From Deltaproteobacteria bacterium (GTDB lineage: Bacteria; Desulfobacterota; Desulfobulbia; Desulfobulbales; Desulfurivibrionaceae): DNA of 42,560 bases. This document shows, piece by piece, positions 2,352 through 13,727 of the stretch. The stretch spans positions 1-42,560 of the forward strand of contig JAJZRO010000020.1 in the NCBI GenBank assembly GCA_021802645.1. Reading direction: 5' to 3'. Numbering within the stretch: position 1 is the stretch's first letter; each line of letters starts with the position of its first letter. The notes under the pieces are model-generated. The model did not search any database and was not told the origin of the DNA. It saw only the letters and a program-made list of their open reading frames with translations. A program made the translations under genes and the position numbers.

Positions 2352-2621
2352 ATGAGAAAGGTTGCCCGGATATTCATGGTGGGCCTGTTGGGTCTCGCTG
2401 CTGCCTTAGGAACGAGCTCTGCCGCCACAAGCATTGACCATGAAGAACCGCAAAAGACCATCAACACTGAGCAAGCGCGCCCAGGACTGACCCAGCCAAA
2501 CGGCGAGACGGAAATGGAAAAGCGCGGCTGCTGTTCGCATCACGGCGGGGTCTGCGGCTGCAACAGCAGCGGCCGGGTGGAATGCTGCGATGGGACGTTG
2601 AGCCCGACGTGTACGTGTTGA
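2352..2621 (+). CDS. Small exported cysteine-rich protein
   Basis: This 89-aa protein has a signal peptide (about residues 1-25, ending near SSAA), a polar linker and a C-terminal cysteine cluster: CC at 60-61, then C68, C70, CC at 78-79, C87 and C89. The tail includes CCSHHGG and SPTCTC. Similar CCSHHGGV...SPTC tails occur at the ends of some bacterial exported nucleases and as stand-alone small proteins. The fold is probably stabilised by disulfides or a bound metal, as paired Cys and His suggest. Function is unknown. The start at 2352 is preceded by GGGGAGAG and fits the signal peptide. It lies 118 bp after cfa on the same strand and may be a separate unit. Confidence 0.65.
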   Translation: MRKVARIFMVGLLGLAAALGTSSAATSIDHEEPQKTINTEQARPGLTQPNGETEMEKRGCCSHHGGVCGCNSSGRVECCDGTLSPTCTC

Positions 2622-2632
2622 GGCAAAAGAAA

Positions 2633-2670
2633 GGGGCTATCCTGGATAAAAAAATCTCTAGGACAGCCCC
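2633..2670 (-). terminator. Second, downstream terminator of the glycolysis/tRNA-Leu unit
   Basis: GGGGCT(A)TCCT at 2633-2643 pairs with AGGA(C)AGCCCC at 2660-2670 around one mismatch. On the minus strand the stem is followed by TTTCTTTT, fitting a back-up Rho-independent terminator. It directly follows the first terminator (2672-2705). On the plus strand the hairpin could also protect the 3' end of the cysteine-rich gene, but there it is followed by A residues. Confidence 0.6.
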
Positions 2671-2671
2671 G

Positions 2672-2705
2672 AAAAAAACCCGCGATCCGTTTCCGGAGGC
2701 GGGTT
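2672..2705 (-). terminator. Rho-independent terminator after tRNA-Leu
   Basis: Read on the minus strand, AACCCGCCTCCG, a GAAA loop and CGGATCGCGGGT form a long stem with a small bulge, followed by seven T. It lies a few bases downstream of the tRNA-Leu 3' end, so it ends the gap-rimI-pgk-tpiA-secG-tRNA transcript. Confidence 0.8.
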
Positions 2706-2711
2706 CAAAAA

Positions 2712-2796
2712 TGGTGCCGAAGGTCGGAGTCGAACCGACACGGGTCTCCCCACAGACACCTCAAGCCTGCGCGTCTACCAATTCCACCACTTCGGC
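2712..2796 (-). tRNA. tRNA-Leu (anticodon GAG)
   Basis: The minus-strand sequence runs from GCCGAAG to an encoded CCA, 85 nt in all. It has the long variable arm of class II tRNAs, a T-loop GTTCGACTC, and the anticodon arm CAGGC-TTGAGGT-GTCTG with GAG at the centre. It begins 36 nt after the secG stop codon. The same order, secG followed by tRNA-Leu(GAG), is found in E. coli (secG-leuU), so the linkage looks ancient or repeatedly favoured. It is most likely processed from the secG mRNA, since no separate promoter is evident. Confidence 0.95.
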
Positions 2797-2832
2797 AATA
2801 CCAGTTTTTTCACAGAGCAAACAACAAAAATA

Positions 2833-3165
2833 CTACTTCGCTGGCGCTGGCGGCGGAGTGCCGCCAGCCGGTGGCAACGGAATCGCGGGCGCCGATTTCA
2901 CCGGCGCCTGGACATCCTGCATCACCGTTCCCTTGCCCACGCTCGAAGAAAGGTAGGCCAACAACACTGAGGTCACCATAAAGACAATGGCGGCGCCGGT
3001 GGTGATCTTGTTCAAAAGCGGCAGCGGCCCCTCGGTGCCGAACACGGTCTGGCTGGAGCCGCCGAAGGTGGCACCCATGTCCGCGCCCTTGCCGTGCTGC
3101 AACAGCACGATCACAATGAGGAACAGACACACCAACACATGGATGATGATCAAAAGGGTCTGCAT
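2833..3165 (-). CDS. secG: Preprotein translocase subunit SecG
   Basis: SecG is the small auxiliary subunit of the SecYEG channel in the inner membrane. The 110-aa product has two transmembrane segments (about residues 2-22 and 52-72) joined by a short loop with the family's LLQ.GKGADMGATFGG motif and FG.EGP. It ends in an Ala/Pro-rich tail of about 35 residues. I start at the ATG at 3165 (MQTLLIIIHV), with GGAAAG just before it. A longer frame would add a charged N-terminus that does not suit the family. The start lies about 40 nt after the tpiA stop, so it is probably in the same operon. Confidence 0.93.
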   Translation of the reverse strand: MQTLLIIIHVLVCLFLIVIVLLQHGKGADMGATFGGSSQTVFGTEGPLPLLNKITTGAAIVFMVTSVLLAYLSSSVGKGTVMQDVQAPVKSAPAIPLPPAGGTPPPAPAK

Positions 3166-3206
3166 CTTTCCAAGGTCCCAGAAAAAACAGCGCCTCGCCC
3201 ACCTTC

Positions 3207-3956
3207 TCACTGAAAGTGGATGATGCGCTCGAATGACTCCACCTTAAGGGCGGCGCCACCAACCAAGGCGCCGTCTACGTCCGCCTGGCGCATCAATTCG
3301 TCCACATTGGCCGGATTGACGCTGCCACCATACAATATTCTCATTTGACCAGCAATATTTTTCTCAAACAGGGCGGCAAGGGTCTGACGCAGATAGGCGT
3401 GGACCTCCTGGGCCTGGGCGGCGGTGGCGGTCCTGCCGGTACCGATGGCCCACACCGGCTCGTAGGCGACCACCAGCTGAGCGGCGGCCGTCAAGGTGAT
3501 GCCGGCCAACCCTTGCTTGAGTTGGGTCTCCAGCACGGCAAAGGTGGTGCCGGCCTCCCGTTCGGCCAGGGTCTCACCGATGCAGAGGATCGGAATCAGG
3601 CCGAATTTGAGGGCACCAGCCACCCGCCGGTTGATGAGGCTATTCGTCTCCCCAAAGAGCTGGCGCCGCTCGGAGTGGCCGACAATGGCCATGGTGCAAC
3701 CCAGTTCCTTGAGCATCCCCGGCGCAATCTCGCCGGTAAAGGCGCCCTGCTCTTCCCAGCAGACATTCTGGCCGGCGAGCAACAGCCGATTGCCGGCCGC
3801 CTCGCGAACCGCCGGAAGAGAGGTGAAGGGTGGGGCAATGAGGACATCCCGATCGGCGACATTCTCGGCCGCCTTGGCAACCGCCGCGGCCAACGCGCGC
3901 GCCGCCGGGATGGTCAGGTGCATCTTCCAGTTGCCGGCGATGAGCGGTCTGCGCAT
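3207..3956 (-). CDS. tpiA: Triosephosphate isomerase
   Basis: This enzyme interconverts dihydroxyacetone phosphate and glyceraldehyde 3-phosphate in glycolysis and gluconeogenesis. The 249-aa protein carries all active-site signatures: AGNWKM with the catalytic lysine, VGHSERR with the catalytic histidine, AYEPVWAIGTG with the catalytic glutamate, and the phosphate loop YGGSVNP. Length is standard. The start is supported by AGGGAGAC upstream. It lies 11 nt after pgk and belongs to the gap-rimI-pgk-tpiA-secG operon. Confidence 0.98.
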   Translation of the reverse strand: MRRPLIAGNWKMHLTIPAARALAAAVAKAAENVADRDVLIAPPFTSLPAVREAAGNRLLLAGQNVCWEEQGAFTGEIAPGMLKELGCTMAIVGHSERRQLFGETNSLINRRVAGALKFGLIPILCIGETLAEREAGTTFAVLETQLKQGLAGITLTAAAQLVVAYEPVWAIGTGRTATAAQAQEVHAYLRQTLAALFEKNIAGQMRILYGGSVNPANVDELMRQADVDGALVGGAALKVESFERIIHFQ

Positions 3957-3967
3957 GGGCGTCTCCC

Positions 3968-5148
<1,181 letters not shown>

Positions 5149-11396: not shown

Positions 11397-12011
11397 ATGC
11401 GCACCACGACCTTGCCGGCCACGGCGCCCCGTTCCGTGGTCGAACGGCTGGCCGCCGGGTTGAGCGACGCGATATTGACCGAACTCTTTCCGCAGCAAGA
11501 GCCGGCCGCCATCCGCGCCCTGCTCCACCAGGCGGCGGCGCACCTTCCGGCACTTCCGCCCCTTTTTCCCCAGGAAGCGAAGGCGCCGGCCAAAGCGCAA
11601 GCCAGCCCCACCATCACCCTCTATTGCGACGGCGCCTCCCGCGGCAATCCCGGCGAGGCCGCCGCCGGCTTCGTGATTCTCGACGCCCACGGCACGGAAC
11701 TGGTGGCCAGGGGGGTCTATCTCGGCCAATGCACCAATAACATGGCGGAGTACCAGGCGCTGATCCTTGGCCTCCACGAGGCGCACCAACTCAAGGTGGA
11801 GCAGCTCACCATCCGACTCGATTCCGAGCTGGTGGCCCGCCAGATCGAAGGCCGCTATCAGGTCAAGGATGCCAAGCTCAAGCCGCTCTACACCAAGGCC
11901 ATGAGCCTGCTGCGGGGTTTCAGGAGCCACACCATCAGCCATGTGCCGCGCCGCGAAAACCAGCGGGCCGACGAACTCGCCAACCAGGCACTCGACGCGC
12001 GGCAGCGCTGA
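11397..12011 (+). CDS. Ribonuclease HI-like protein with N-terminal extension
   Basis: The C-terminal RNase HI domain (about residues 70-200) keeps the four catalytic acids: Asp in LYCDGASRGNPG, Glu in NNMAEYQAL, Asp in IRLDSELV and Asp in NQRADELANQA. It should cleave the RNA strand of RNA/DNA hybrids. The first 70 residues are a poorly conserved Ala/Pro-rich extension. The basic handle region of E. coli RnhA is missing, placing it with the shorter RnhA-like group of many bacteria. Total length is 204 aa. It begins 8 nt after the zinc-ribbon gene and probably shares its transcript. Confidence 0.9.
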   Translation: MRTTTLPATAPRSVVERLAAGLSDAILTELFPQQEPAAIRALLHQAAAHLPALPPLFPQEAKAPAKAQASPTITLYCDGASRGNPGEAAAGFVILDAHGTELVARGVYLGQCTNNMAEYQALILGLHEAHQLKVEQLTIRLDSELVARQIEGRYQVKDAKLKPLYTKAMSLLRGFRSHTISHVPRRENQRADELANQALDARQR

Positions 12012-12289
12012 AGCGCAGGCTGACCGCGCCTCCGGCAAACCTGTCATCGCTTGCGACACGCTCTCTTTTGCCAAACCAACAAAACTTCGTCCGCTGAGGC
12101 ACGCCGTGCGACTTGGGCAAGATCACATCTGAGTTAGCACGCCCAAACGGTTGCTTCTGTGGTTGAATTTATCAATGGCCCCTGCTATCCTGCCAAAGAG
12201 TTATGGCAAAAACGGCCGCCGCAGCGGACAGCCAAGCCCTTACCGCTGCCACAATACACAGAAAGCAGGAAGGTCATACAACGGATTCC
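12012..12289. other. Intergenic stretch before the AT-rich cassette-like gene
   Basis: No gene is visible between the RNase HI stop codon and the cassette-like gene at 12348. Reading frames here are short and lack ribosome-binding sites. GC content falls from left to right. I see no clear terminator for the upstream operon. Confidence 0.5.
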
Positions 12290-12333
12290 GTATAACACCG
12301 TATTGGCCCATTCTGTCTAACACAATGTTATGC
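12290..12333 (+). repeat. Left attC-like site
   Basis: Outer boxes GTATAAC and GTTATGC are complementary apart from one wobble, and ATTG/CAAT adds inner pairing. The 44-nt length is shorter than the usual attC range of roughly 57-140 nt, so it may be truncated. Confidence 0.35.
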
Positions 12334-12347
12334 CTGAATAGCAAGAC

Positions 12348-13151
12348 ATGGACATCGATGAACTTGAATCCATAGCTGAAAATGTAGCTGAGCAGCTTGA
12401 TGACCATATTGGCAAGTTGGGTAAATTTGCTCTTAATATAAGAAATACTAAATTCCCCTCAACGAATTTAGCTTTATTTAGTTTTATCCCCAAAGTTGAA
12501 AGTATAAGATCTGGAATATTTGAACTGGCTAGAGCCGGAGAAGTTTATTCTGAAAAAATATTATTCAGGTCTATCTGTGAACACTTCTTGAAATTTAAAT
12601 ATATTGTTACTCGTTTCACCGAGGATAAAAATGATGATATAGGGAAAGAGTACTTTATTTTCTGTGGTGCTCAGGAAGAACTGAACTTTGCGAAGTCATT
12701 AAAAAAAAGAGCAAGTGTGTTAGGGGAAAAAATAGACATTGACCCTCTTGAAATATTAAAAAAATATCAACCAATTTTAAAAAATGAGTCAAACAGATCC
12801 ATAAACAAAATCGCTGACCAGTTCAAACATAAAAATATGGTTGAATACGTAACGAAAATTTTAGACAGCGAAAAAGAAACACCAAATCCTTTTCTTCCTA
12901 ATATAATTCCGGCATACTCAGAATTGTCCTCGTTTGTCCACGGTGGCCCAAGTACTCAAAGAGATTCTGACATATGCGCGGACCAACGCTTAGCTGAAAA
13001 AACATTAATAAAAGATGCCATGGTGGCGTTACAAATGTCACTTTCAGTTCGTTCTTTCGCTTTTTTACTCTTCTCTCTCGAAGACAAAGATATGCTCTCA
13101 TTGTTTAAGGTTATTGACAAAAACTTAAAATCGTTACCTAGATTAAAATGA
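12348..13151 (+). CDS. AT-rich hypothetical protein, possibly DUF5677-like
   Basis: This 267-aa protein is predicted to be mostly alpha-helical and soluble, with no signal peptide. I recognise no catalytic motif with confidence. The pattern YSELSSFVHGGP near residue 200 resembles the conserved Y..LS..VHG segment of DUF5677-type proteins, which are common in defence-related and integron contexts. That resemblance is tentative. Codon use is strongly AT-biased (many AAA, ATA and TTA codons), unlike the flanking operons. A good ribosome-binding site is not obvious; AGCAAG lies about 5 nt before the ATG. The flanking attC-like boxes suggest it arrived as a cassette. Confidence 0.7.
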   Translation: MDIDELESIAENVAEQLDDHIGKLGKFALNIRNTKFPSTNLALFSFIPKVESIRSGIFELARAGEVYSEKILFRSICEHFLKFKYIVTRFTEDKNDDIGKEYFIFCGAQEELNFAKSLKKRASVLGEKIDIDPLEILKKYQPILKNESNRSINKIADQFKHKNMVEYVTKILDSEKETPNPFLPNIIPAYSELSSFVHGGPSTQRDSDICADQRLAEKTLIKDAMVALQMSLSVRSFAFLLFSLEDKDMLSLFKVIDKNLKSLPRLK

Positions 13152-13154
13152 TAG

Positions 13155-13224
13155 GTATAACAAAATGCTTCAGCGCAAAATCCGGCCTCCGGCCAGTTTT
13201 CCGTTGAGCTCCAAGGAATTAGGG
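13155..13224 (+). repeat. Right attC-like site
   Basis: GTATAAC (13155-13161) is followed by a hairpin in which GCT(T)CAGCG pairs with CGTTGAGC and AAAAT...GGCC pairs with GGCC...GTTTT around a TCC loop. It carries a looped-out T and other unpaired bases, as attC sites do. It ends near GTTGAGC (13203-13209) or ATTAGGG (13218-13224). Confidence 0.35.
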
Positions 13225-13242
13225 ACACCCCCCATATTTTCC
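13218..13242 (+). repeat. Second copy of the dispersed ATTAGGGACAC sequence
   Basis: ATTAGGGACACCCCCCAT continues with ATTTTCC and aligns with the copy at 2267-2289 with one small insertion. It lies at the right edge of the cassette-like unit, upstream of rnpB. Confidence 0.45.
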
Positions 13243-13327
13243 TTGCCATGCAGGTCAACCACGGCTGACGCCAGACAATCTCTTTGCTCGCTACCTCGCC
13301 CATGCCCCGCGCTTCCCCTGCACCCCC

Positions 13328-13356: not shown

Positions 13357-13362
13357 GTGGGC

Positions 13363-13706
13363 GGAGTGGGCGCATGATCGCTGGCGGTTTCGGCTGCCAG
13401 AGGAAAGTCCGAACTCCGCAGGGCAAGGAGGTTCGTAACGCGAACCAGGGGCGACCCTGGGAAAGTGCCACAGAAACATACCGCCGGGCAACCGGTAAGG
13501 GTGAAATGGCGAGGTAAGAGCTCACCGCTCCCGTGGCGACACGGGAGGCAGGGCAAACCCCTCCTGGAGCAAGACCAAATAGGGAAACGTTTGAGGGCGG
13601 CCCGTCCGAAGTTTCCGGGTAGGTTGCATGAGGTGCCGGGCGACCGGCATCCGAGAGAAATGATCATGGCCCGTCAGGGTACAGAATTCGGCTTACAGCC
13701 CACTCC
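13363..13706 (+). ncRNA. rnpB: RNase P RNA (class A)
   Basis: This is the catalytic RNA that removes tRNA 5' leaders. The conserved cores are visible: GAGGAAAGTCCGAACTCC near 13400, GGTAAGGGTGAAATGGCGAG followed by GTAAGAGCTCACCG near 13500, and ACAGAATTCGGCTTACAG at 13681-13698. Helix P1 is formed by GGAGTGGGC (13363-13371) and GCCCACTCC (13698-13706), which are exact reverse complements. The P4-type pairing is kept by paired changes (CCGAA with TTCGG, where many species have CCGGG with CCCGG). A run of eight T (13709-13716) follows and probably ends transcription. ispDF begins 12 nt later. Confidence 0.97.
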
Positions 13707-13727
13707 ATTTTTTTTCTTCCGCCGGCC

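Follow-up and report, generated by a model that had tools for sequence, protein, structure and literature searches.

How did a single AT-rich gene come to lie between the RNase HI gene and rnpB in a core region of this deltaproteobacterial chromosome? From the 42,560-nucleotide stretch analysed here (the window), the original prediction had proposed a stray integron cassette, i.e., a gene of foreign composition with attC-like boxes on both sides and no integrase nearby. Our analysis retains the cassette and reinterprets its left side, and the locus is very likely the remnant of a small integron with one fixed cassette. The features on which this reading is based are the following:

11397-12011, plus strand: RNase HI gene, left host flank (orthologue in the sister species G001, 77% identity)
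12012-13305, plus strand: whole insertion relative to G001 (right edge accurate to within about 10-15 bases)
12163-12191, plus strand: putative cassette promoter Pc, TTGAAT-17-TATCCT (arrangement conserved among copies)
12262-12329, plus strand: attI site as identified by homologous copies, some beside intI; crossover between G12327 and T12328
12290-12296, plus strand: GTATAAC box within attI, as opposed to the R'' of an attC (position variable among copies)
12327-12333, plus strand: cassette boundary GTTATGC, i.e., R' in the circular form of the cassette (attI copies diverge after TGTT)
12348-13151, plus strand: cassette gene, 267 aa, divergent DUF5677 protein (PF18928 profile match)
13155-13224, plus strand: attC site with a conserved core at 13155-13211 and without its R' box (covariance model, 59.1 bits)
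13217-13257, plus strand: dispersed repeat AATTAGGGACACCCCCCATATTTTCC in place of the R' half of attC (copies in relatives)
13362-13711, plus strand: rnpB, right host flank (RF00010, 310 bits)

The insertion and its truncated attC site

The cassette gene has a GC content of 0.34 as opposed to about 0.61-0.72 in the surrounding region, in agreement with the foreign composition first noted, and the RNase HI gene and rnpB do lie on either side of it. The comparison with an empty site is based on one close relative, the sister species G001, in which about 50 bases separate the RNase HI stop codon from rnpB and the 1.3-kb insertion is absent: the alignment of G001 to the window extends up to 12011/12012 and resumes from about 13310-13323. 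The gene is thus not common to all relatives at this locus, and the empty site, together with the attC model described below, supports a single cassette inserted in a core region.

The right-hand site was searched with an attC covariance model built from nine sites of relatives, the window being left out. Positions 13155-13224 score 59.1 bits (E 3.8e-18) in the 42.6-kb window, where the next plus-strand match reaches 8.9 bits only, and the same model also detects attC sites in the intI-bearing arrays of relatives. The stretch 13158-13211 recurs with 83-92% identity in six related genomes (G064, G018 (twice), G004, G043, G015 and G003), mostly with an R' box at the expected place after the conserved stretch. 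In the window, R'', L'', the apical stem and L' are matched, while R' (GTTRRRY) is missing or replaced: the site stops after GAGCTC and continues with CAAGG and a dispersed repeat where relatives have GGTCGTT, so that GAGCTCGGTCGTT in the attC sites of relatives corresponds to GAGCTCCAAGGAATTAGGG here. As the repeat starts precisely where the R' box is due, the window attC appears to have lost its R' half. Similar copies of the repeat (AATTAGGGACACCCC) are found in G013, G021, G022, G024, G025, G026 and G048, mostly with the same starting base, and this common start recurs at many unrelated loci. Many genomes of the order contain scattered copies of the repeat, AATTAGGGACAC(T/C)CCCCA..TTTTTCC, one of which comes after an attC in G007 (L074).

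The imperfect hairpin with a looped-out T, previously described on the right side, is present, and its stability does not exceed chance (z -0.27 and -1.43); the attC call therefore rests on homology, and hairpin energy was dropped as proof of attC. An alignment of 47 attC matches contains palindromic reverse-strand copies and is consequently unfit for a general attC model.

An attI site on the left side and a missing integrase

Identical GTATAAC boxes do flank the gene, at 12290 and 13155 (three occurrences in the window vs 0.52 expected from shuffling). What did not survive is the claim that both belong to attC-like sites. An integron attI is normally viewed as one fixed site beside intI. The element at 12262-12329 recurs on contigs C1, C11 and C28 of the host genome (G000) and, elsewhere in the order, in ten further genomes; in all, 15 copies reach E<=1e-4, and these come from 11 genomes out of 258. 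An HMM trained solely on copies without a neighbouring integrase produced matches at the intI loci of G056 (E 8.9e-16), G018 (E 2.5e-12), and G081 and G040 (E about 4e-6 for both). The IntI start codon of G056 lies 143 bases from the attI crossover, with the gene pointing away, and in G238 and G018 intI is likewise directly upstream of attI. Because a model made from integrase-less copies finds the element beside the integrases of relatives, 12262-12329 is identified by homology as the attI of an integron type present in this order. The left site was accordingly ruled out as an attC, since it recurs beside intI as attI; other attI copies carry GTGTAAC, GCATGGT, GTAGCGC or GCATAGC at the GTATAAC position, and this comparison of copies proves the box at 12290 to be incidental.

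By contrast with these boxes, the GTTATGC that had been read as a cassette boundary is well placed. Nearly all attI copies are conserved up to TGTT and then become unrelated, mostly with purines next, and in the window the attI copy gives way to the cassette exactly at the G^TT crossover. GTTATGC differs by one letter from the G^TTRRRY-type consensus and is followed by a start codon in the same direction at 12348. Upstream of the crossover, about 170-180 bases align with the integron of G018 (68% identity). This leader includes a TKG-N3-N17-TATCCT/TAATCT arrangement, located between -170 and -123 relative to the crossover and shared by three copies of the host (the window copy, C1 and C11) and two intI-bearing copies (G056 and G018), and its TTGAAT-17-TATCCT is the probable Pc; the putative promoter is a weak match, with 8 of 12 consensus letters, and is absent from the output of the promoter scan.

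Of the components of a complete integron, the window thus has attI and lacks the intI gene. As first noted, no integrase is present, and this extends to the whole host genome: its assembly (38 contigs and 99.4% complete, so that an intI may still have been missed) yields no TIGR02249 match over the cut-off, XerD and XerC accounting for the two weak ones. Matches over the cut-off were obtained in 55 of the 97 genomes searched, the host not being among them. No intI remnant was found within 3 kb upstream of the window attI.

The cassette gene product

The 267-aa product reaches 35 bits against PF18928 (DUF5677; curated cut-off 27.1, E 1.8e-8), confirming the family suspected at the outset, but as a divergent member: direct searches found no relative in 58 related genomes, plasmids, phages and viral contigs. 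An R-x3-E motif and later Y and H columns are common to the window protein and to cassette-borne DUF5677 relatives, and the retention of these positions suggests that the window gene is not dead. Other DUF5677 genes of the order are often located between or beside attC-like sites (e.g., in G009, G254, G200, G095, G081 and G257), on one or both sides, part of which are also found by the covariance model; this frequent association indicates that the family is a regular cassette cargo. No anti-phage match was obtained for the window protein in PADLOC, and a defence or toxin-like role may be proposed by analogy, from the company that it keeps.

The window protein is probably all alpha-helical. Its own single-sequence structure prediction is too poor for use (pLDDT 38), while a cassette-borne DUF5677 relative gives an all-helical predicted model (pLDDT 73, pTM 0.70). 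Foldseek with the latter returned no match at E<=0.001, and VIA-align gave Z up to 9.5 with generic helical bundles and seven-helix proteins. A function based on fold was dropped, these Z values being within the chance range for helical bundles.

Orphan attI units and the origin of the insertion

The three further attI copies of the host are also orphans, with different and partly phage-defence-like cargo. On C1 (L056), attI (3349-3418, minus strand) is followed by a TIR gene, a canonical attC, a Rap1a-like gene and a second attC-like site, the two genes being at 2534-3325 and 2058-2438. The first encodes a CAP12/Pycsar TIR-domain protein (PF10137, E 2e-30) and is matched by the PDC-S35 and TIR effector models of PADLOC, where PDC-S35 is a candidate defence family. 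On C11 (L057), attI precedes a HEPN-like gene that is below Pfam's cut-off. An orphan attI followed by the same HEPN-like gene is found in the sister species as well (G001:C40, L071); as judged from these sequences, the unit is either older than the split of G000 and G001 or has moved between them. On C28 (L058), a DUF4236 gene accompanies an attI (4373-4440) whose crossover is degraded (ATATT), and no clear attC comes after the attI. This attI is located directly behind a probable pgpA gene. The flanks of the C1 and C28 units are on separate contigs or at a contig end in G001. Overall, 13 of the 16 attI copies examined, L058 among them, have no adjoining integron integrase; the copy at L131 has a distant recombinase (32% identity) on its downstream side.

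Under the favoured reading, an IntI-type recombinase would have inserted the DUF5677 cassette by attC x attI recombination, leaving the G^TTATGC junction. The intI gene would then have been lost, either in place or after copying, and what remains is a leader of about 170 bases, a probable Pc, attI, one cassette and a truncated attC. No intI trace is left upstream, which counts against this reading in so far as it assumes a loss in situ. As the attC is without its R' box and the genome without IntI, the cassette is in effect fixed and probably locked in. Such an immobile cassette would behave like a normal accessory gene, with transcription probably driven by the leader promoter, and its product may protect the host.

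That the locus is no integron at all, i.e., an AT-rich islet whose GTATAAC boxes and hairpin arose by chance, has a negligible probability: the hairpin, whose stability alone is not significant, would fit, but the attC covariance match, the attI HMM matches at intI loci and the 15 attI copies refute it. Very improbable as well is the insertion of a cassette circle by IntI at a chromosomal attG site that was never an integron platform. Loot et al. in 2024 (cited in PMC12690207) reportedly described cassettes integrated at attG sites, and the window resembles these in having a lone cassette in the chromosome, far from an integron. A lone attC without integrase is the reported outcome of such an event, intI is absent, and the host does hold a cassette array without an attI of this type (at C37:66737; the region C37:64000-69500, L169 and L171, comprises two AT-rich cassette-like genes with attC sites and no integrase). 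An attG site would, however, be host sequence, whereas the left of the crossover consists of a full attI and about 100 bases of leader common to intI-bearing integrons; the identification of attI thus largely refutes insertion at attG.

A less remote, although still rather unlikely, alternative is that leader, attI and cassette were copied as a unit to several places, either through IntI-mediated recombination of attI with a second site or through some other element. The four orphan attI of a single genome and the many copies lacking intI would be consistent with this, as would the fact that no convincing intI remnant is found upstream of any orphan attI. In the furthest-extending pairs, homology between orphan and intI-bearing copies ends near the intI start codon (-150 to -185), a border predicted by copying and by independent loss alike. 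Against copying, the left borders of the units differ within the host, where the crossover is separated from the neighbouring host gene by 124, about 204 and 318 bases, the copies are only 82-85% alike, and a search for a second recombination site or a target duplication gave nothing. The differing borders and the divergence of the copies favour independent loss of intI. A broader and rather doubtful extension is that chromosomes of this order carry scattered leader-attI modules devoid of intI, which serve as fixed expression slots for one cassette each, in part a defence-related one; if true, the attI platform itself could multiply or persist apart from its integrase.

Loss of the integrase has precedents. 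Single or clustered attC sites lacking an integron-integrase are known as SALIN and CALIN (PMC12690207, PMC9024848), the latter being described as degraded integrons (PMC9024848). With one strong attC match and no integrase, the window element, an attC-bearing cassette without an integrase nearby, is a SALIN, yet one that has kept its attI and leader, has a truncated attC of its own, and is accompanied by several such units in a host genome without any intI. In Xanthomonas integrons, intI was inactivated or deleted at one conserved locus, ilvD (PMC12444791); there too, the platform remains after intI loss and the cassettes are frozen in the chromosome, but the orphan attI of our host occupy four different loci of one genome. 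The Delta-attI-type cassettes of class 1 and 2 integrons, in which a partial attI replaces attC at the 3' side of the cassette (PMC12901181), likewise have attI sequence in an unusual place, while in the window a whole attI with its leader precedes the cassette on the 5' side, intI being no longer present.

A literature search for orphan attI sites without integrase found nothing. The unusual part of the present case is the multiplicity and dispersal of integrase-less attI, the SALIN kind being already known. Four orphan attI and no integrase in one genome show how cassettes can become permanent chromosomal genes, and the series from intI-bearing through intI-less units to a truncated attC is traceable and can be used for testing integron decay or spread. 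Searching for attI also recovers lone cassettes that attC-cluster searches at default thresholds would miss. Finally, many integron integrases of the order (L081, L119 and others) are open frames of 430-570 aa, and those of G056 and G018 (467 and 472 aa) have about 150 additional N-terminal residues ahead of the TIGR02249 region.
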